This document shows positions 3,322 to 31,830 of a stretch of DNA of 64,000 nt, piece after piece. The translations under genes were made by a program, and so were the position numbers. The first letter of the stretch is position 1, and each line of letters begins with the position of its first letter. Source of the stretch: Acidobacteriota bacterium (GTDB lineage Bacteria; Acidobacteriota; Terriglobia; Terriglobales; Acidobacteriaceae). The notes under the pieces were generated by a model, which did no database searches, was not told where the DNA came from, and was given only the letters and a program-made list of their open reading frames with translations. The stretch spans positions 1 through 64,000 of the forward strand of contig JABCZC010000014.1 of assembly GCA_013289875.1 (NCBI GenBank), in the 5' to 3' direction.

Positions 3322-5823
3322 TTACTCGCAACGCAAAGATATGCTGGGATCAATGCGAGAAGCGCGGCGTGCCGGGATATAGCTGGCAATGAAAGCGATC
3401 GATGCCAGAAGCGATGGAACAGCGGCAAACGTCTCGAGGTCGTTGGCTCCGACACCGAAGAGCAGCGAGCGCATCACGCGGCTCACTGTGAGTGCACCCG
3501 CAATGCCGATGCTGACTCCCCAAAAGGCCAGGGTCATGCCGCCACGCACGATCAGCGCCTTGATGTTCGCTGGGGTAGCGCCGAGCGCTAGACGGATGCC
3601 CACTTCGCGGCTACCTTGGCCAACCAGATAGGCGATGAGCCCGTAGATGCCGATGACGGCGAGGCCAAGCGAGATGGCTGCAAATGTTCCCAGGACGAGC
3701 ATGGTAAAACGACGGCGAACCAGCGAGTTGTCGAATCGCTCCTGCATGGTACTCACGTTGTAGAGCGGCAGATCAGGATTAATTTCTCGAATCTGCTGCT
3801 TTACCGCGCCGGTCAGGCTGACAGGATTGCTGCCAGCTCGCATAACGACATTCATGGCGCGCGTGACGTATTGGGTTTGAGGAAGGTAATAGGCTATGCG
3901 CGATTCCGAGTCGAGGGTGTATTGTTTGACCCTTCCGACGACGCCGACAACGGCGATCCAAGGCGAGTCTGTCTCGTTGATGCCTCCGATTTGCAGGCGC
4001 TTGCCAATCGGGTCCTGGTTAGGCCAGAGCTGCTGCGCCATGTAATCATCGACAATCGCAACAAGAGGTTTGCCGGCGGCGTCATCGTCCTGGAATAGGC
4101 GCCCCTCGCGCAGTGGTATTTCCATTGCCTGGAAATAATGCCCACTAACCATACGGACATCCGCATTGATGAACTTCTCGCCCGGAGGGGGTACGCGTCC
4201 CTCCACTGTGACGGGCCCCCAGGCAAACATTTGGCTCAGCGGCAGCGAGGTGACGGCGCCCGCGGAGGTGACGCTGGGCAGGCTTTCGAGGCGCATCCAC
4301 AGCTCGCGATAGGCGGCGAGTACGGCTGTCTTGTCCTTGTAACGCTCGCCGGTCATGGTGAGCTCTAGGGTGAGGACGTTATGCGGATTGAAGCCGGGAT
4401 TGACGTCGCGGACACGAACAAAGCTGTGAATGAGCAGGCCCGCGCCGATCAGAAGCATGACGCAAAGGGCGATCTCGGCGATGACGAGCGAGCGGCGAAG
4501 ATAGTTGCCTCGTCCCCAGACGGCGCTGACGCCGGATGACGTGCGGATTGTGTTCTGGAGGACGGTCTGTACATCGATGCGTGAGACGCGCAGTGCGGGC
4601 GCAAGTCCAGACAGCATTGCCGATAATACACAAGTCAGGAAGGTGAAGGCGAGGGCGGTGAAGCCGATGCCAACATTGCTTAGCCTTGGTACGCTCTGTG
4701 GGCCAAGCAGCCGCACGCAGCGCAAGGCAAGAAAGGCAAAGGCGATGCCCAGTGCTCCGCCTGTGAAGGCGAGCAACATGCTTTCAGTCAACAGCTGGCG
4801 AACGATCCGCAGGCGAGATGCACCTAGCGCACTTCGCACTGCCATTTCCTTTTTTTGCCGTGCGACGGCCCGCGAGAGCTGTAGGTTAGCCAGGTTGACA
4901 CATGCGATGAGAAGGACAAAGCCAACGGCCCCGAGCAGGAGGTACAGCGTGTGCCGGACATTGCCGACCACCTGCTCAAGGAGCGGCACGATGCGGAATG
5001 TGAGGCCGCCGTTGGGCGGATAGACTTCCGGATACTCGTGCCGCAGGCGCGCGGTGATAGTGTCCATTTCAGCCCGTGCCTGCTGTACGGAGACACCTGG
5101 CTTGAGCTCGCCGATGATGTTGTAGTCTTCATGGTCGCGATTCTGCGCCGCGTCGGGGGGCATCGGAAGCGGCAGCAGAATCTCCGCCTGCTCGGCGCCG
5201 TCGAGTGTGGGCATGACCTCACGAGGTAAGGAAAATGAGCGCGGCATGATGCCAACGACTTCATACGGCAGGCCGTTGAGAACGATCTTTCTGCCCAGGA
5301 CCCGGGGATCGGAACCGAAGCGTCGGGCCCATGTTCCGTAGCTGAGGATAGCGGTGGGAGTGCGGCCTGGGGTGTCCTCATCGGGAAGGAAGACTCGCCC
5401 GAGAGCTGTGCGTTGTCCTAGTAGTGAGAGGAAACTCGACGAAACCCGGATGGTTCCAACGCGCTCCGGCTCGCCTGAGCCGGTGAGGTTGTAGTTGCCG
5501 CCGATGGCGATCGCAACTTTCTCGAAGCCGTGATGACCGTTCTTGATGTCGAAGTATTGCGCGGTGGAGAACCAGTCTTCGGTGATGTTGAGGCCGGGAG
5601 AGCTGTTCCAGAGAATAACCAGCCGTTCCGGATTGGCGTATGGAAGTGGATGAAGCAAAAGGCCGTCTACGATGCTGAATATCGCAGTATTTGCGCCGAT
5701 CCCGATAGCCAGAGAGAGGAGTGCTGCCATCGTGAAGGGGCGCGCTTCGTTCAGGACGCGAAAAGCGTAACGCAGGTCTTTCAGCGGGGCATTCATGGAG
5801 GCAGCAATATCGCTGGCGACCAA
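3322..5823 (-). CDS. ADOP-type ABC transporter permease (MacB/FtsX fold, duplicated)
   Basis: 833 residues from a TTG at 5823; ATG 5796 (MNAPLKDLRYAFRVL) is an equally plausible start and fits the family N-terminus better. It has an N-terminal membrane helix (about 30-52), a MacB-type periplasmic domain, and an FtsX-like block of three helices (about 290-410). A second copy of the arrangement starts at RRSLVIAEIALCVMLLIGAG, and a last FtsX block ends at PARRASRIDPSISLRCE. This doubled architecture without an ATPase is characteristic of the acidobacterial duplicated orphan permeases, usually annotated as efflux or macrolide-type export permeases with unknown substrate. No ATPase or periplasmic adaptor lies next to it. 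A broken regulator of TetR type follows directly. Confidence 0.9.
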   Translation of the reverse strand: MVASDIAASMNAPLKDLRYAFRVLNEARPFTMAALLSLAIGIGANTAIFSIVDGLLLHPLPYANPERLVILWNSSPGLNITEDWFSTAQYFDIKNGHHGFEKVAIAIGGNYNLTGSGEPERVGTIRVSSSFLSLLGQRTALGRVFLPDEDTPGRTPTAILSYGTWARRFGSDPRVLGRKIVLNGLPYEVVGIMPRSFSLPREVMPTLDGAEQAEILLPLPMPPDAAQNRDHEDYNIIGELKPGVSVQQARAEMDTITARLRHEYPEVYPPNGGLTFRIVPLLEQVVGNVRHTLYLLLGAVGFVLLIACVNLANLQLSRAVARQKKEMAVRSALGASRLRIVRQLLTESMLLAFTGGALGIAFAFLALRCVRLLGPQSVPRLSNVGIGFTALAFTFLTCVLSAMLSGLAPALRVSRIDVQTVLQNTIRTSSGVSAVWGRGNYLRRSLVIAEIALCVMLLIGAGLLIHSFVRVRDVNPGFNPHNVLTLELTMTGERYKDKTAVLAAYRELWMRLESLPSVTSAGAVTSLPLSQMFAWGPVTVEGRVPPPGEKFINADVRMVSGHYFQAMEIPLREGRLFQDDDAAGKPLVAIVDDYMAQQLWPNQDPIGKRLQIGGINETDSPWIAVVGVVGRVKQYTLDSESRIAYYLPQTQYVTRAMNVVMRAGSNPVSLTGAVKQQIREINPDLPLYNVSTMQERFDNSLVRRRFTMLVLGTFAAISLGLAVIGIYGLIAYLVGQGSREVGIRLALGATPANIKALIVRGGMTLAFWGVSIGIAGALTVSRVMRSLLFGVGANDLETFAAVPSLLASIAFIASYIPARRASRIDPSISLRCE

Positions 5824-6274
5824 TGTATCTCAAACGGCGGGGAATAGAATATAGCGTCGAGCAGAACTGAAACGACTGCCCTCTAGCGCATTGCAGATTG
5901 GACTGCGAGAATGCTTTTTTTCAGTTCTCCGCAATTGCCCTAAATGTCGAGTCAGACCATTCGGTGTGGCTTTGATGAGGCCCCGGTGCGAACGGCAGGC
6001 AAAAACAGTAATCCTCTATTGGCGACTTCAGGGCTTAGCACTCATTGAGAATAATTTGTGGGCCGAAAGGCCGATTAGTACGGAAACACCTGCAGCCTTC
6101 TGCGATAAGCCATTTCCGAATTACTGGAGCCTAGCCGACATATCGGTACCGATGTGCCAAGCGATGAGCGGATTGTCTATCGGCACGCTGAAGCGGGCAG
6201 TCGGATGGCCGCTACCGAACTCCTCGATAGCGACCATCCTGATAACAACTCACTCCACCGCGTCAAGGAAACGC
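5824..6274. other. Intergenic, no gene supported
   Basis: 451 bases between the permease start and the 3' end of the M56 gene. An open frame from 5891 (plus) runs into the M56 gene on the other strand and has no protein-like character. I see no repeat or terminator. The permease promoter should lie here, but no clear boxes stand out. Confidence 0.4.
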
Positions 6275-7627
6275 TCAGTAAACCTTCTCGGCCTGTATTG
6301 GCTTCATGTTCGTTGGGGCACCCATAGGATGGATTTCGGCATGTGTGTCGTCCATCAGGGTCACAGTGAATTCAAAACCATCCATGACTTTGACGTGTAG
6401 TGCGGAACCTTCCAGAGTTGCCTTGATCTGCTGTGGCGTGGTGTTGTCGGAGGGATCCGCCTTGCTCAATTCCCCAGCGTCATTTAGCGCGATACGAGAT
6501 TCGGTAACGGATCCCGTATAGCCGGATCCGCTCCGAGCCAGAGTCATTGTGGCGAAACTCTTTCCTTGAAACATCCAGTGCCACGTTCCGGCGAATGCCG
6601 GCGCGGCATCTGAGGATCCCGAAGCTGCCTGCAGGCTCGTTGCGCGCGCGAGCACCGCGCCCGAGCCAAATGTCATGCTGATTGCCAATACCAATCCAAT
6701 CAGATCGGCGCTTGATAGCGGACTTCTCTTCTTGGTTAACATCATGATTCGATCCTCCAGGTTGTCACCATCGAAAATACCCAGCCCCACTGCGTTCCCA
6801 TGGGGAGCATGCATACACAGTGAGGCCAGGCGTAGGAGTGTGCGGGCATATAGACGTCGTTTTCCGAGTTGAACGGCTGCGTGTTCATCGCAGGCAAGCT
6901 CACGAGTCTGCGAAATCTTCGACTTCAGGTACCAAATGCCGGGGTGCCAGGCCACAGGCAAGGAGACAACTTCACATAAGATGTGGACCAAGAAATCTCT
7001 TCGACGAATGTGAGCGTATTCGTGCGCAAATACAGCCGAGAGTTCGTGTTGTCCAAGAGCAGGTAGCAATTTGCTGGGCAGTACGATTGCGGGATGAAAT
7101 ACACCGACAGTCACCGGCTCCTCAATGTCTGTGGATTTGAGGAGGGCGACCGGATGCGAGGCAACCGTCGAGCGAGCCATTCTGATTTCGGCAGGAGAAA
7201 GCGGCCAAGCGTCTCTCCGCAGTCGATGCACTCGGCGGAGACCGCGGCCAAAGTGGATGAGCTGATTGACAACAAGCGCTCCCCAGATGACAACGATCAC
7301 ACTTTCGGCTCCTGCCCCGAGCTCGGGCGGATCGTACGCTTTGGCACGCCCCTCCCATATCCAGAAGTAATGATCAGAAGATCCTGTCCGGTGTACCGCG
7401 TCCTGCGGAGATTTCTCTGCGATCACAGATCGATGCGTGGACCAGAGAGTATTGATCACTGGTACAGCCAGACACAGGATCAGCACGCCAAGATAGAAAG
7501 AATGTTGATACTTTGCTTTGGCTTTCGCAACGAATGATGAGAAGACTGCCGCAACGACGGCAAAGAATCCAATCTGCAGGAACGCATTGAACACCAAGTC
7601 GAATGGGACTTCCCGAATCGTAGTCAT
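6275..7627 (-). CDS. M56 (BlaR1/MecR1-type) membrane metallopeptidase
   Basis: 450 residues. N-terminal membrane helices (about 15-35 and 43-62, then about 108-125) lead into a cytoplasmic zinc protease domain with HEYAH at 202-206 and the downstream ELACDEHAAV glutamate motif. This is the signature of M56 peptidases that cleave BlaI-type repressors. One further helix (LIGLVLAISMTFGSGAVLA) is followed by ~110 residues (FAGTWHWMFQGKSFATMTLA) resembling a small beta-barrel rather than a penicillin-binding sensor. The signal sensed is therefore probably not a beta-lactam; that is inference. The ATG shares one base with the original blaI stop (TAATG), typical translational coupling. Expression should be controlled by the operators in front of blaI. 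Confidence 0.88.
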   Translation of the reverse strand: MTTIREVPFDLVFNAFLQIGFFAVVAAVFSSFVAKAKAKYQHSFYLGVLILCLAVPVINTLWSTHRSVIAEKSPQDAVHRTGSSDHYFWIWEGRAKAYDPPELGAGAESVIVVIWGALVVNQLIHFGRGLRRVHRLRRDAWPLSPAEIRMARSTVASHPVALLKSTDIEEPVTVGVFHPAIVLPSKLLPALGQHELSAVFAHEYAHIRRRDFLVHILCEVVSLPVAWHPGIWYLKSKISQTRELACDEHAAVQLGKRRLYARTLLRLASLCMHAPHGNAVGLGIFDGDNLEDRIMMLTKKRSPLSSADLIGLVLAISMTFGSGAVLARATSLQAASGSSDAAPAFAGTWHWMFQGKSFATMTLARSGSGYTGSVTESRIALNDAGELSKADPSDNTTPQQIKATLEGSALHVKVMDGFEFTVTLMDDTHAEIHPMGAPTNMKPIQAEKVY

Positions 7628-8019
7628 TATGCCTCCTCCTCTTCATCCCCAACGGTCTCCAGTTTTGCCTGCAGTTCGGCAAGCTTTCGAGAGTCGAGGT
7701 GCCTGCTCCGCACTAAAGAGAGGAGCAAGTCATCCACTGAGCCTCAAAAAACTTTGTGCAGGACATCTTTGATGGCGTGCGAATCAGCTGCTTCTTGAGA
7801 AACGGCGGCGCTGTATTCGAACGCGCGCCCAACGAGCTTCCTCTTCACTTTGCATTTGCGGTGCAGAACGTTCAGCGTGGTCTGAACCGTCGTATAGGCA
7901 AGTTGAGGCTCCCCCGCCAAGCCTTGCAGAACCTTCTGAACATTTCCCCGACCCTCATCCCAGAGGACGCGCATGATTCGTCGCTCCAGGGGAGTCAGGA
8001 CTCTTGCCGCTTTAGCCAT
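7627..8019 (-). pseudogene. BlaI/MecI-family repressor with in-frame premature TGA
   Basis: Codons 1-91 (MAKAARVLTPLERRIMRVLW) encode the winged-helix DNA-binding domain and end HKVF then TGA at 7746-7744. Reading straight on in the same frame gives GSVDDLLLSLVRSRHLDSRK then LAELQAKLE, the normal BlaI dimerisation helix, up to TAA at 7629-7627. The stop replaces a residue in what is usually an FGGS-like turn; one base change (GGA to TGA) explains it. The intact length, 130 codons, is typical of the family. As it stands the product is a 91-residue DNA-binding domain without its dimer interface. Sequence error, a true nonsense mutation, or TGA readthrough are all possible. The ribosome site AGGAGA lies 9 bases before ATG and inside the operator. 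Confidence 0.85.
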
Positions 8020-8027
8020 CGACGCAA

Positions 8028-8047
8028 TCTCCTATACGCATAGGAGA
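8028..8047 (-). promoter_or_regulatory. BlaI operator 1 (perfect inverted repeat over RBS)
   Basis: TCTCCTATACGCATAGGAGA is an inverted repeat with 8-base arms and a 4-base centre. It directly follows the predicted -10 box and includes the AGGAGA ribosome site of blaI. A bound dimer would block both initiation and ribosome loading. Confidence 0.75.
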
Positions 8048-8074
8048 CTATCTCGCCAGCGCTAAACGTGTCAA
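8047..8074 (-). promoter_or_regulatory. Predicted blaI-M56 promoter
   Basis: On the minus strand a perfect -35 TTGACA (8074-8069) is followed after 16 bases by GATAGT (8052-8047), a 4/6 match to the -10 consensus. It lies between the two operator-like repeats. Confidence 0.6.
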
Positions 8075-8090
8075 CTATACATATAGGAGA
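8075..8090 (-). promoter_or_regulatory. BlaI operator 2 (half-conserved inverted repeat)
   Basis: CTATACATATAG is an inverted repeat running into AGGAGA. It shares the half-site TATAGGAGA with operator 1 and abuts the -35 box, a second site expected for cooperative BlaI binding. Confidence 0.6.
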
Positions 8091-9102
8091 TAATTACCCA
8101 CGCCTGACAGTCGCACGGTGTGCGCAGGTTGATCCTATCGCGTCAAAATGAATCCTGTTAAACGCGCATGGCGACGCTGATTCCCCCTGGCTGCGCGACA
8201 GTTGATTCCAGTCGCGATGCCGACATATCGTTCCCTATCTGCGGTCGATGAGCGCTTTGGCGATTTACCACTCATTGAGTCAACGGCGATACTGTTCAGG
8301 TCGTCGAGACCGCCGCCTGCATATTCGCTTAGCGGAGGTCTGCGCGGGGCTCTGAGCGGGGGCGGCACCGACAGCGGTTACGCCGAAAAGAAGGGCAGCA
8401 ATCATGGGCGAGGATAAGCGCAACAGTGAGCGATTAAGTTTCATCGGACGTACGGTATCAGTGGAGCGTCGGGATTGACAAAGGAGGCTGTGACATGAGT
8501 TGAGACGCACGGGCTACCTCTTTGTGGTTGTCCGCTGGAGTCCCCTGCTTGATCTGTGCCGAGAGATGAGAGAGACATTGAACAAGGAGAGCGTATGGGA
8601 CGGGTAAGAAGTGCCAGCCTGAGCAGGTCGTGAGTCTCTGCGGCAGATCGAAGTGGCCGTGGCGAACGGCAAGACGCGGCACAAGCGTCGAAGGAAGCCG
8701 AAATCAGTTTTGAGCACCTGCAGGCAATGCATCAGAACGAAAGAATAATTGACCTGAACATCGAGTGGAGCTCCTTTGAAAAAATGGAAAAAAGATCCGA
8801 CTATAGGTCGTAGGGATCGTCCCATTACAGAAGGAGCAGGCGGCCTTGGGCGCTTGATTGAAATGGGCGAAATGGACCGAAGTTATCCCATTGACGTGAT
8901 ACGCCAGAAATTACAGATTTGGGCTCGCTGAGTGACTCGGAGATTATGCACTAACTGAAGACTAGCTGCGGCGAATGAGCGTCTAAGCCACAAACTCAAT
9001 GAAGGCTCCATAGCGTCAGACCAGTAAAGGTCGATGTATTCACAGATTAGCTGGCGAATCGATCCCAGTATCCCACCGGCTTCTTCAGGTGGAGATAAGC
9101 TC
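8091..9102. other. Decayed region with gene fragments
   Basis: About 1 kb without an intact gene. On the minus strand, codons from 8444 read MKLNRSLLRLSSPMIAALLF then GVTAVGAAPAQSPAQ, a convincing signal peptide, but the frame ends at 8280. The continuation lies in another frame (to 8135), suggesting a frameshifted remnant of a small secreted protein; support is weak. An IS3-like fragment is at 8595-8712. Nothing else was recognised. Confidence 0.4.
8595..8712 (+). mobile_element. IS3-family OrfA remnant
   Basis: Pieces in shifting frames read KKCQPEQVVSL, LRQIEVAVANGKT and AQASKEAEIS. These match the N-terminal helix-turn-helix of IS3-type OrfA transposases (KxxxPEQIVxLLRQIEVxxxxGK, then QAxKEAEI). 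At least two small indels are needed to join them. No inverted ends or orfB were found, so it is a dead fragment. Confidence 0.5.
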
Positions 9103-12100
9103 TCACGAATCGGTCATCAGGGCGTCTTTTTCGAGCGACATCATCATCTCCTGGAGCTCAGGTGTGCGCTTCCGTTGGAAGGGATGGAGATAGAGGTAAA
9201 TCACAGGTGTGACGTAAAGGGTCAGGGATTGAGAGAGAAGCAGGCCTCCAACGACTGCGATTCCCAGCGGACGGCGAGCTTCACCACCTACACCTCCGCC
9301 GAATGCGATCGGAAGGGCTCCCAGGAGTGCGGCCATAGTGGTCATCATGATCGGGCGAAAGCGCTGGAGACAGCCCCGGTAGATCGCATCTTCCGGGCTT
9401 AGATTTGTCCTGCGCTCGGCTTCGAGGGCGAGGTCAACAATCATGATGGCGTTTTTCTTCACAATGCCGATCAGCAGGATCACGCCAAGGAAGGAATAGA
9501 GGTTGAGATCTTCACCGAAGAGCAGCAAAGTCAGGAGCGCTCCTACTGCGGCTGGTGGCAGGCCGGAGAGGATGGTGATGGGATGAATGAAGCTCTCGTA
9601 GAGAACTCCCAGAACGAGATAGATCACCATGACGGCAATGACGAGCAGAAGTCCCAGGCCTTTGAGCGAGCTCTGAAACTGAGCGGCCGTTCCCTGGAGG
9701 GCGAAAGTCAACGTTGCCGGCATCCCGATCTCTTCCGCTGCCTGGCGGACAATTCTTGTCGCCGCGTCAAGTGAGATTCCGGGCTTGAGGTCGAACTCAA
9801 ATGTCACAGCAGGAAATTGACCTACGTGGTTAGCGGTCAGCGGAGCTACGGTCTGGGTGAGCGTGGTGACCGCGGAGAGCGGAACGAGCCGCCCTGTGTT
9901 CGACCTTATATATAGGTCTCCCAGGGTAGCCGGATCATGCTGGTACTGTGGCGAGACCTCAAGGACAACGTCATATCGCTGGGACGCCACCATGATCGTG
10001 TTGGCTCGGCGGTTTCCGTACGCGTCATAAAGAGTGTTGGCGATCATCTCGGGACCGACATTCAGTGACATGGCCAAGTCCCGCCGTATATCGACGTTGA
10101 CTCTCGGAGCACTCATCTGCAGGTCTGAAGAGACATTGGCCAATTCAGGCAGCGATTGCAGCTTTTCTTTCAGCTTGGGCGCCCATCGATACAACTCCTC
10201 CGCATCTGGGCCTTCGAGCGACGCAGAGTACTGCGAACGGCCTTCGTTCTGACCCAGGCTCACGAAGTCTCCCTGACGCAGATAGACATTCAGGCCCGGA
10301 ATGCGATTCAGCTTCTTCTGCAAATCGGCGATGATGATTTTTACATTCGGGCGCCGTCTATCCTGGACTAGATTGACCCAGAACCAACCTGAATTCTGAG
10401 ACTCGACGCCGGACAGATTGCTCTCCATCCATGGCGTGGTCGCAAGGACCTTATTCACCTGCTCGCCGTAGCTAACCATGCGATCGAAGGAGTTGTCCTG
10501 CGAGGCTTCCAGATGGCCGGAAAAATAGGGAACGTCCACAGCAGGCATGAAGCTTTTCGGCATGACGACAAAGAGGTAAACGGTCAGCACGGTCATAGCG
10601 ATGCTGACAGCGATAGTGGCCCTCCTGTGCCGCAATACCGCATCCAGTGAGCGCCTGTAGCCATTCTCCATCGCGGCATAGAGTTTTTCCGTACGCCTGT
10701 GGAACCAGTTATCGGCCTGTTCTCGCGAGGTTAGAAAGCGACTGCAAAGCATTGGGGTGAGCGTCAAGGCGGTCAGGCCGAGAGCAGTATCGATACCGAT
10801 ATGGTGATTGCGAATTCGCGAAGCAGGCGTCCGAGTATTCCGTTGAGAAAAACGATCGGGACAAAGACGGCCACCAGCGAAATAGTCATCGAGATGATTG
10901 TGAAGCCCACCTCGCGGGCGCCGTAGATCGCGGCCTGCAGCCGCGTCTTGCCCATCTCGCGGTGGCGCACAATGTTTTCGATCATCACGATAGCGTCGTC
11001 GACGATAAAACCGACCGAGAGCGTTATAGCCATCATCGAGAACATGTCCACCGAATAGTTGAGCAGTCGCATTACGATGAACAATCCGAGGATGGAGACA
11101 GGAATTGTGGCGCTTGCGACGATGGTCGAAGATGCCGTGCCAAGAAAGATGAAGATAACCATCACCACCAGGCCGATGGTCAGAATAAGAGTTCGATTGA
11201 CTTCGGCGATGGAATCACGGACCGTGTCGGCGTTATCGGCTAATTTGCCGAATGAAACGCCAGGGGGCATCGTTTCGCGCAGGGATTGGACGACTGCCTT
11301 GACCTGATCGGCAACCTCCACCGTATTCGCGCCGGGCTGTTTCCTGACGGCAAGAATAATGCTGCGGCGACCGTTGATCCAGAAGGTGCGCTTGTTATTG
11401 GTTGAGCTGTTGAAGACGGCCGCAACCTGATTCAGGCGCAGCGGCACGCCATCTCGATACGCAACGACCAGCTGCGAAAACTGGTCGGCAGACATGAGTT
11501 GGCTATTGGCCTGAAGCGAATAATCCCGTGCGTCGCCATACATTGTTCCCGTGGGGAGGTTGGCGCTGTTGCTGCTAAGCGCCGTGCGTATCTGCTCGAG
11601 ATCGAGGCCGTATGCAGCCAGCCTCGCTGGATCGGCCTGAACGCGGATGGCGGGATCTTCCGGGCCGTAGACCTGTACCTGCGAGACACCGTTCACCATG
11701 GAGATGAGCTTCGCGAAGACCTGATTGGCGTATTTCGCGAAGTCCTCATACGCGATCGTCGTTGAGGACATTTCGATCCAGATAATCGGTTCTTGTGCAG
11801 GATTCACCTTAGAGTAGGAGGGCGGCGATGGCATGTCGCGGGCAAGGCGCCGGCGGCGTGCGAGATCGCGGCCTGAACATCCTGTGCAGCTGCGTCCACG
11901 CTGCGGCTCAGGTTGAACTGGAGCGTGATGTTCGTCTCTCCAACGGAGCTGGAAGACGTCATGTGTTCGATGCCGGGAATTGTCGAGAACTCGCTCTCAA
12001 GTGGTGTGGCGACCGTCGATGCCATAGCGTCGGGGTTTGCTCCGGGCAGCGCTGCGCGCACCTGAATGGTTGGATACTCGACCTCCGGGAGATTGCTGAC

Positions 12101-12199
12101 GGGCAGAGAGAAGTAGCTCAGAACACCAAAACCTGCGATCGCCGAGATAAGCAGCGTGGTCGTGGTGGCGCGGCGAATGAAGAAGTCAGTCAATTGCAT
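9103..12199 (-). pseudogene. RND (HAE1/AcrB-type) efflux pump gene with two -1 frameshifts
   Basis: Three consecutive minus-strand reading frames join into one ~1030-residue inner-membrane drug/proton antiporter. The start is ATG 12199 (MQLTDFFIRRATTTTLLISA) behind AAGG. Frame 1 breaks at ALPATCHRR; adding one C to the CCC run (GGG at 11840-11842 on plus) restores LPRDMPSPPSYSKVNP. Frame 2 ends ISVSILLSA then TGA; adding one C at 10776-10777 restores LSALTALTLTPMLCSRF. Key residues survive: the TM4 pair in FIVDDAIVMIEN and the TM10 lysines in IVKKNAIMIVD. The last residues are EKDALMTDS. Either decay is very recent or the frameshifts are base-calling errors. No outer-membrane TolC-type gene is in the window. 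It follows the fusion protein gene in one transcript. Confidence 0.88.
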
Positions 12200-12229
12200 G
12201 GTCAACCTTATGCGGCCGGAGCGAGCGCG

Positions 12230-30517: not shown

Positions 30518-30979
30518 GCAATCTTCGATCTTGGACCCCAAAACTCCCGTGGGTTTCGAGCTCTCAAGGTCTGGCTCGCACTCCAGGAGGTCGGTCGAGC
30601 CGGCTACGTTCAAACGATAGGAACGGATATCGCGCTGGCCAGGGAATTGTTTGAACAAGTCAGGTGTTGGTCTGAGCTCCAGGCTCTTACTCAGTCCCCC
30701 AGCATCACCACATTTCGTTTCGTTCCTCCAGACCTCAGTCACGGCGGCGACGACGAAGAGTCTTATCTCAATTGGCTGAACTCTGAGCTCTTGACGCGCT
30801 TGCAGAACAGCGGCGAGGCCTACCTTTCCAACGCCATCATGCATGAAAAGTTCGCACTGCGCGCCTGCATCGTCAATTTTCGCACTTCTGCGGCAGACAT
30901 TGAAGCACTGTCCTCGAGCCGCGAAATCCTTCGTCCCTCAATCGAGAACATCCCACGCCATCGGTCAGACGGCGGATGA
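30518..30979 (+). pseudogene. C-terminal remnant of a PLP-dependent decarboxylase
   Basis: The frame reads AIFDLGPQNSRGFRALKVWL, then ALQEVGRAGYVQTIGTDIAL, ELQALT, and after more residues LQNSGEAYLSNAIMHEKFAL and RACIVNFRTSAADIEAL. This is the C-terminal third of an aromatic-L-amino-acid/glutamate decarboxylase-type enzyme (group II). The catalytic Lys region and everything before it are missing. After ADIEAL (about 30909) the frame runs into unrelated sequence on the strand opposite an ADOP permease fragment. It cannot be functional. Confidence 0.75.
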
Positions 30980-31307
30980 ATCTCTGAGACCGAGACGGCC
31001 CGCACCCCGGGAACCGCGCGCAGCCGTTCTGTCAGCTGATCGCTAAACTCAGTAAAATCGACTCCTTCGTCGGATATTGCGCCGGCGGCAGATACAGTTG
31101 ACCTTGGATCAAGTGATCGACGCGAAATCCGAGGTCCTGATTCTGCAGTCGCTCCAGCGTCTGGATCAGCAGGCCCGCGCCAATCAGCAGCATCAGCGAG
31201 AGCGCGATCTGCGCCGTCACCAGCATTTTCCTGAATGCCTGTCGCGATGCCCCCGGTGCTCCACCGCCCGCCATCTGGTTGCTTGGCCTGTTTTCGGTGG
31301 AAGTCAT
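30935..31307 (-). pseudogene. ADOP permease internal fragment with frameshift
   Basis: Minus-strand frames read QAFRKMLVTAQIALSLMLLI then GAGLLIQTLERLQNQDLGF, the second-half membrane helix of an ADOP permease, down to YLPPAQYPTKE. After one extra C at 31072-31073 they continue as DEGVDFTEFSDQLTERLRAV, then PGVRAVSVSEIHPPSDRWRG. Both ends of the gene are gone. The intact paralogue at 3.3-5.8 kb shows what is missing. Confidence 0.75.
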
Positions 31308-31830
31308 TCGACCCCCAATCGGAGGTAATGGTAGACATCCGACTGTCAGTTGTCAGGACGCTGGTCCTCGATTGATAACTTCAGGCCAAACCGCTCGTTG
31401 ACAGGGTTCCTGGAGGTTTGTCGCCCACCCGGCAGTTACTTTGTAGTACATGGTCACAGCGCGAAAACGCTTCGTAACCGCCGACGCAGGCCCGGGGTGG
31501 AAACGATCGGTATCGATAAGCGCCGATCTGAGGTTGAACCAATTAGATTTCGTTCGATCCGTCTTTAGTGAATGATAATGTCCTTCATCATTGGCTACTG
31601 ATTGGCAAGCCGGCGGCCTGGACTTCGCCAACTTCCGATAGCCGACAAGCCGGGAATCAGTCAAAGTCGACTAGAGCTTCTGGTCCCAGCTTTCCTAGTG
31701 AGTCGCTCCTCATAAGACGCGTCGCAGGCAGTCGGTTCGATCATTTTCGCGCGCACGCTAATCTGTTTGCATAGTTTGGCGGCGGCAATCCGCGGGCCCG
31801 GTATCTGTCTTTATCTCGAAAGGAACTCCA
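31308..31830. other. Intergenic, no gene supported
   Basis: 523 bases. A GG-N10-GC spacing occurs at 31593-31606 (TTGGCTACTGATTGGCAA), but the -12 half is poor and it is 225 bases from the next start. I see no other structure. Confidence 0.35.

Follow-up and report, generated by a model that had tools for sequence, protein, structure and literature searches.

An in-frame TGA in the repressor gene of a blaI-M56 cassette from an Acidobacteriota bacterium

The BlaI repressor of S. aureus is cleaved between Asn101 and Phe102 (PMC9834060), and the protein cleaved at 101-102 is described as having a low affinity for its operator (PMC3305447). Natural truncation of such a repressor has also been reported: according to PMC3149077, each of the 8 SCCmec type III S. 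aureus strains sequenced there had a mecI cut short at Gln68. We describe here a blaI gene with an in-frame TGA at codon 92, found in a 64,000-nucleotide stretch of DNA (hereafter 'the window') from the draft genome of an Acidobacteriota bacterium. Like the mecI allele of PMC3149077, it combines a premature stop, a truncated repressor and an adjoining gene for an M56 sensor-protease. The mecI stop, however, falls inside the DNA-binding part of the protein, whereas that of the window falls after the DNA-binding domain; and while the mecI system of that report controls an antibiotic-resistance gene, a search for exact operator matches found no target here beyond the blaI cassettes themselves.

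The locus resembles other members of the BlaI/MecI family (PF03965) in its winged helix, its gap-free alignment, its overlapping M56 gene and the inverted-repeat operators at its own promoter. It departs from them by the interruption at codon 92, by operators of the class CTCCTA-N6-TAGGAG that occur, in an exact-match search, only at blaI promoters, and by the lack of a beta-lactamase among the listed reading frames neighbouring the cassettes, as judged by reading the frames rather than by a family search. The kind of event is already known, and what this locus adds is a pair of cassettes and a test of selenocysteine decoding.

The blaI frame on both sides of the TGA

The blaI gene and its partner are laid out as follows.

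7747..8019, minus strand: blaI before the TGA, 91 codons, winged-helix DNA-binding domain and helix 4 (from the frame, Pfam and a structure model)
7744..7746, minus strand: in-frame TGA, codon 92 of blaI (from the sequence)
7630..7743, minus strand: blaI frame after the TGA, 38 codons, with predicted dimerisation helices 5 and 6 and the equivalent of the S. aureus BlaI cleavage site
7627..7629, minus strand: TAA of blaI, sharing one base with the ATG of the M56 gene (TAATG)
6275..7627, minus strand: BlaR1-like M56 membrane metalloprotease, 450 amino acids, intact frame, HEYAH motif

On the minus strand, the stretch 8019-7627 reads as 91 sense codons followed by TGA (7746-7744), a further 38 sense codons and a TAA (7629-7627), with the M56 ATG beginning at 7627 and overlapping the TAA by one base. 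The TGA, the preserved second half and the TAATG junction reported by the first-pass annotation were thus all present when the frame was re-read. Residues 1-91 match Penicillinase_R (PF03965; E 8.4e-21), residues 8-91 aligning with positions 1-84 of a 115-position profile. The 38-residue piece retrieved no family at E<=1 when searched alone against Pfam; it is identical to the four closest intact homologs at 30, 30, 30 and 25 of 38 positions, and by this alignment the stretch after the TGA is genuine BlaI sequence.

Codon 92 corresponds to a variable loop position. In 33 aligned homologs it encodes G (24 cases), Q (4) or one each of R, K, A, D and S, and none of the 33 has Cys or a stop there. 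This set leaves out L021 and L022 (the same loci as L016 and L017), L001 and L007 (the window and the second cassette of this genome again) and the distant L006 (E 1.4e-6), which by eye reads FCDGS in this region, with a Cys one residue earlier. Another unusual residue of the window protein is Cys56, where the 33 homologs have Gly (28), Lys (4) or Arg (1).

The alignment of a profile of 12 family members with S. aureus BlaI and MecI has no gaps, and position 92 falls on position 92. In the model of the protein encoded by the second cassette (contig C48, see below), the C-terminal helices span residues 75-90, 95-104 and 110-127, and residue 92 sits in the loop between predicted helices 4 and 5, where pLDDT is only about 60-70. 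Under the standard code, helices 5 and 6 follow the TGA and the dimerisation helices do not belong to the translated chain. From the frame and the helix positions, the predicted 91-residue product would still contain the winged helix and helix 4 but neither helices 5 and 6 nor the cleavage-site equivalent, in agreement with the product without dimerisation helices proposed earlier. By analogy with cleaved S. aureus BlaI, we infer that it would bind its operator weakly.

Pairwise comparisons point to selection on both halves of the frame. Pairwise dN/dS after the TGA is 0.09, 0.19, 0.11 and 0.18 against the four closest homologs, the synonymous divergence of these 38 codons being about 0.65 or higher, and a purifying signature is seen on both sides of the TGA. 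On the branch of the window copy, omega was estimated at 0.114 for the codons preceding the stop, 0.144 for those following it and 0.361 for the M56 gene; neutrality is rejected before the stop (lnL -921.76 vs -927.01) and for M56 (lnL -5720.71 vs -5731.79), and is not rejected for the 38 codons alone (lnL -462.60 at omega 0.144 vs -463.79 at omega 1). Constraint on both sides suggests that the TGA is young relative to the branch, is an error, or is no stop in practice. The statement that the rest of the gene shows no decay is supported by the identity to the closest homologs (25-30 of 38 positions) and by the pairwise ratios of 0.09-0.19. It is nevertheless too strong, given that neutrality is not rejected for the 38 codons alone on this branch, that Cys56 is unusual and that the adjacent RND gene carries two frameshifts.

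A stand-alone cassette and its second copy

The M56 product matches Peptidase_M56 (PF05569; E 1.9e-28) and presents the HEXXH signature as HEYAH. It resembles BlaR1/MecR1 in its membrane metalloprotease domain and in a weak match to the NCBIfam model blaR1_generic. Unlike them, it stays far below the curated cut-off of that model (58.9 bits for a cut-off of 400), and no beta-lactam sensor was recognised in its C-terminal part with Pfam and NCBIfam profiles. The gene has its own strong Shine-Dalgarno-like run, GAGGAGG, ahead of its ATG.

DNA similarity to Edaphobacter lichenicola (L016) extends, in two pieces, from about 8095 to about 6277, and similarity to Granulicella sp. S156 (L017) from about 8095 to about 6435. 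The edge near 8095 coincides with the operator-promoter stretch, and the flanking genes differ among L007, L016 and L017. On these boundaries, the blaI-M56 pair is a stand-alone cassette. Close copies of blaI are rare in the family and in the order: identity of at least 82% over the first 91 residues was found in 4 of 398 genomes sampled in the family (this one, G221, G203 and G186) and a sample of 397 genomes from the order yielded those 4 again. In the other eight genomes sampled from the genus, relatives reach no more than 57% identity or are missing at the search threshold.

Around the cassette, short frames upstream of blaI (8135-8510, minus strand), one with a signal-peptide-like start, look like the remnant of a broken gene. 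After the cassette lies an intact duplicated permease of the ADOP family (3322-5823, minus strand; TIGR03434, 945 bits).

Two operators precede blaI.

8029..8046, strand not assigned: operator 2, an inverted repeat of the CTCCTATGCGTATAGGAG type just upstream of blaI
8075..8089, minus strand: operator 1 (CTCCTATATGTATAG), directly ahead of a TTGACA hexamer at 8074-8069

A second, intact blaI cassette, encoding a BlaI of the same subtype, is present on contig C48. Its BlaI is 87% identical to that of the window over the first 91 residues, with a nearly identical recognition helix, and the 15-mer of operator 1, CTCCTATATGTATAG, is the same in both promoters. Searched exactly across the entire draft genome, the pattern CTCCTATNNNNATAG gives 6 matches, amounting to 4 sites, two per blaI promoter, while the reversed pattern has none; degenerate sites could escape this exact-match search. 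Inverted-repeat operators are thus found at the gene's own promoter, and both sites are kept at homologous promoters: in G221, G203 and G186 the pattern again marks the blaI promoter, with 2 sites per genome. An extra match in G186 and a single one in G005 do not rise above control level (0 to 4 matches of the reversed pattern per genome). Self-regulation would be the simplest explanation of this arrangement, with cross-regulation between the two cassettes possible.

Did the M56 protease lose its target, as had been proposed? Locally it probably did, since the equivalent of the cleavage site, placed by alignment to S. aureus BlaI and MecI, lies after the TGA. On the other hand, the proposal overlooked the intact C48 BlaI, of the same subtype and with shared operators, which could repress the window promoter and serve as a substrate for M56. 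The loss of the window BlaI is probably buffered, because an intact cassette exists on C48 and exact operators occur only at the two blaI promoters.

A duplication within the genome was rejected as the origin of the pair. In a five-sequence codon-model tree, placing the window copy beside those of Edaphobacter and Granulicella gave lnL -7151.37, against -7183.24 for a grouping of window and C48 and -7177.27 for the third grouping. As the window copy groups with Edaphobacter and Granulicella and not with C48, the two cassettes look like separate acquisitions.

Nonsense allele, sequence error or split repressor

This TGA is most likely either an ordinary loss-of-function change of recent date or an error in the sequence, rather than a sign of a recoded gene. 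Of the two, we consider it fairly probable that the TGA is read as a stop and represents a recent nonsense allele of the repressor gene in a stand-alone blaI-M56 cassette. The sequence supports this reading through the frame with its stop, the intact operators, the intact M56 frame and the intact C48 cassette; further support comes from two selenoprotein-type genes of the genome whose hairpins fit the published model and which blaI does not resemble (see below), and from a nearby RND gene that was recently broken too. Against it we count the odd hairpin at the TGA and the purifying signature on both sides, a pattern compatible only with a recent change, an error or readthrough. A nonsense allele would yield the 91-residue winged-helix domain with helix 4, which would dimerise poorly and hence repress poorly, like proteolysed BlaI, and M56 could still be translated from its own start. 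The C48 BlaI, with its nearly identical recognition helix, could bind the window promoter in trans. As the genome has no other exact operator match, loss of the repressor would change little beyond the two cassettes, and the nonsense change would be tolerated for that reason. If real, the allele is a natural BlaI-type truncation in a two-gene cassette with operators only at its own promoters; the intact second cassette then provides a built-in comparison, making this a usable case for the function of BlaI-M56 pairs without beta-lactamase.

The main rival is an error of sequence or assembly, or the consensus of a strain mixture, with a true gene that is intact; we hold this to be possible, though rather unlikely. 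The genome is a draft of 184 contigs, 90.16% complete and with 3.07% contamination, the TGA comes directly after a run of T, and the purifying signature on both sides also speaks for this reading. The neighbouring gene also bears on this question.

9103..12205, minus strand: RND efflux permease gene broken into three pieces by single-base frameshifts near 11834 and 10777

Intact relatives of this multidrug-type permease are found in G001 (78% across the last 554 residues) and in G005 (69%). The TGA and the two frameshifts all fall inside some 4.1 kb, the kind of clustering that poor local coverage would give. However, in 104,940 bases of this genome homologous to sampled G001 and G005 sequence, the only frameshift sites are the two of the RND gene, so that the assembly is not error-prone in general (the reverse control gave 3 sites, one echoing the broken window frame and two in L122). 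The RND indels, moreover, fall outside long single-base runs, and the TGA site is well inside an 80.5 kb contig. Local decay under relaxed selection and a poorly covered stretch account equally well for this cluster of lesions.

Could the two halves work as a split repressor? On this view, translation halted by the TGA would resume at codon 95, an in-frame GTG, and the DNA-binding and dimerisation parts would be made as two chains; alternatively, the C-terminal piece would interfere with the repressor from C48. A GAGG four bases before this GTG, both seen in the sequence, and the conservation of the C-terminal part are in favour of this idea, which we nonetheless regard as improbable. The four closest intact homologs also have GTG at codon 95, so that the codon needs no restart role; the resulting chain would be short (36 residues), and no split blaI occurs among the matches listed.

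Probable selenocysteine decoding in the genome and the hairpin at the TGA

Readthrough of the blaI TGA was tested because the genome carries selA, selB and two selenoprotein-type genes, and because an unusual hairpin is located at the TGA. On contig C101, selB scores over its curated cut-off and selA is cut by the contig end. Two TGA-containing frames adjoin them, one of the carboxymuconolactone-decarboxylase type (CPYU) and one of the deiodinase type (TUPPF); in this region (L158, 10875-14216), selB is followed by these two frames. Each of the two has a hairpin that fits the bacterial SECIS model, the values being -7.5 and -12.2 kcal/mol, and both share a GGUU located inside the loop or at it. 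No clear tRNA-Sec was found in the draft, where the sole match over the cut-off is a tRNA-Ser; in G001, of the same genus, a tRNA-Sec precedes a selD-like frame and a selA-like start (named by reading of the frames). These genes indicate that the organism likely decodes UGA as selenocysteine. A molybdopterin-family scan for a selenoprotein formate dehydrogenase gave 4 matches, none with an internal stop.

A general reassignment of TGA finds no support. Counting in-frame stops in the best alignment per place over 35,257 aligned residues of sampled sequence, we found 4, all ahead of likely start codons (two judged from the list of open reading frames). A coding-potential scan at threshold 0.2 gave 5 sites here and 5 in the control, with no excess of in-frame TGA. 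The blaI site scores low on its two sides (0.11 and 0.08), which points to an atypical codon use in the cassette, and the scan could not call this site. An initial tally, with 120 in-frame stops here and 112 in the control direction, was set aside because it reflected mostly antisense shadow frames.

The hairpin is a real and unexplained oddity.

7664..7758, minus strand: unusually stable RNA hairpin around and after the blaI TGA, with no fit to bacterial SECIS elements (from folding)

RNA of blaI codons 88-118 folds at -34.7 kcal/mol (z -2.29), a value reached by 5 of 200 shuffles, and only 4 of 266 coding windows reach this z (blaI is more stable than 262 of the 266). None of 1500 synonymous permutations folds as well, while codon-usage resamplings do so in 0.5% of cases with the usage of the cassette and in 3.7% with that of the genome. 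The four closest homologs, which have no TGA, show no such hairpin (z 0.45, 1.30, -0.35 and 0.48). This stability counts for a selenocysteine reading, and the locus shares with bacterial selenoproteins an in-frame UGA, a hairpin after it and a genome with selA and selB. It differs from them in having neither a fit to the SECIS model nor Cys homologs at the site. The model described in PMC13188914 specifies a loop of 3-9 nucleotides with a G in its first two positions, a spacing of 16-37 nucleotides and at most -7.5 kcal/mol; 69 of 2277 background positions pass it, whereas the best candidate at the blaI TGA reaches -4.1 kcal/mol. The test is not absolute, since the same source mentions bSECIS elements that the model does not cover. 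No GGTT occurs in the 60 bases that follow the TGA, an Rfam scan of 5500-9500 gave no match, and no tRNA was found within the window.

Reading of UGA codon 92 as an amino acid, selenocysteine or otherwise, to give full-length BlaI is thus very unlikely to us, in spite of the selenocysteine genes on C101, the tRNA-Sec of G001 and a hairpin that begins at the TGA and is missing in homologs without it. The blaI context falls short of a model that two controls from the same genome pass; 0 of 33 homologs have Cys, although, according to PMC12013277, Cys homologs now seem to exist for every known selenoprotein; the draft's best tRNA-Sec match is a tRNA-Ser, and sampled sequence shows no excess of in-frame TGA elsewhere. 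Selenocysteine at codon 92 was rejected as the main reading on the failed SECIS model, the lack of Cys in the 33 homologs and the passing controls, and the earlier suggestion that both forms exist by readthrough loses its footing for the same reasons. UGA is likely used for selenocysteine elsewhere in the genome (selA, selB, two genes), but the blaI site shows no fit to the model. The lesson for method is that, where an organism decodes selenocysteine, an in-frame TGA should be tested against the organism's own SECIS elements before recoding is claimed. Very unlikely as well is a recoded UGA directed by the hairpin that starts at this codon. Repression would then depend on whether the 91-residue monomer or the full-length dimer is made, a choice governed by selenium or redox state, and Cys56 and Sec92 would be new redox residues.

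Elsewhere in the window, a frame at 30820-31338 (minus strand) resembles by eye a fragment of an ABC permease, with no Pfam match, and a long repetitive low-complexity frame occupies the contig start (26-880, plus strand).
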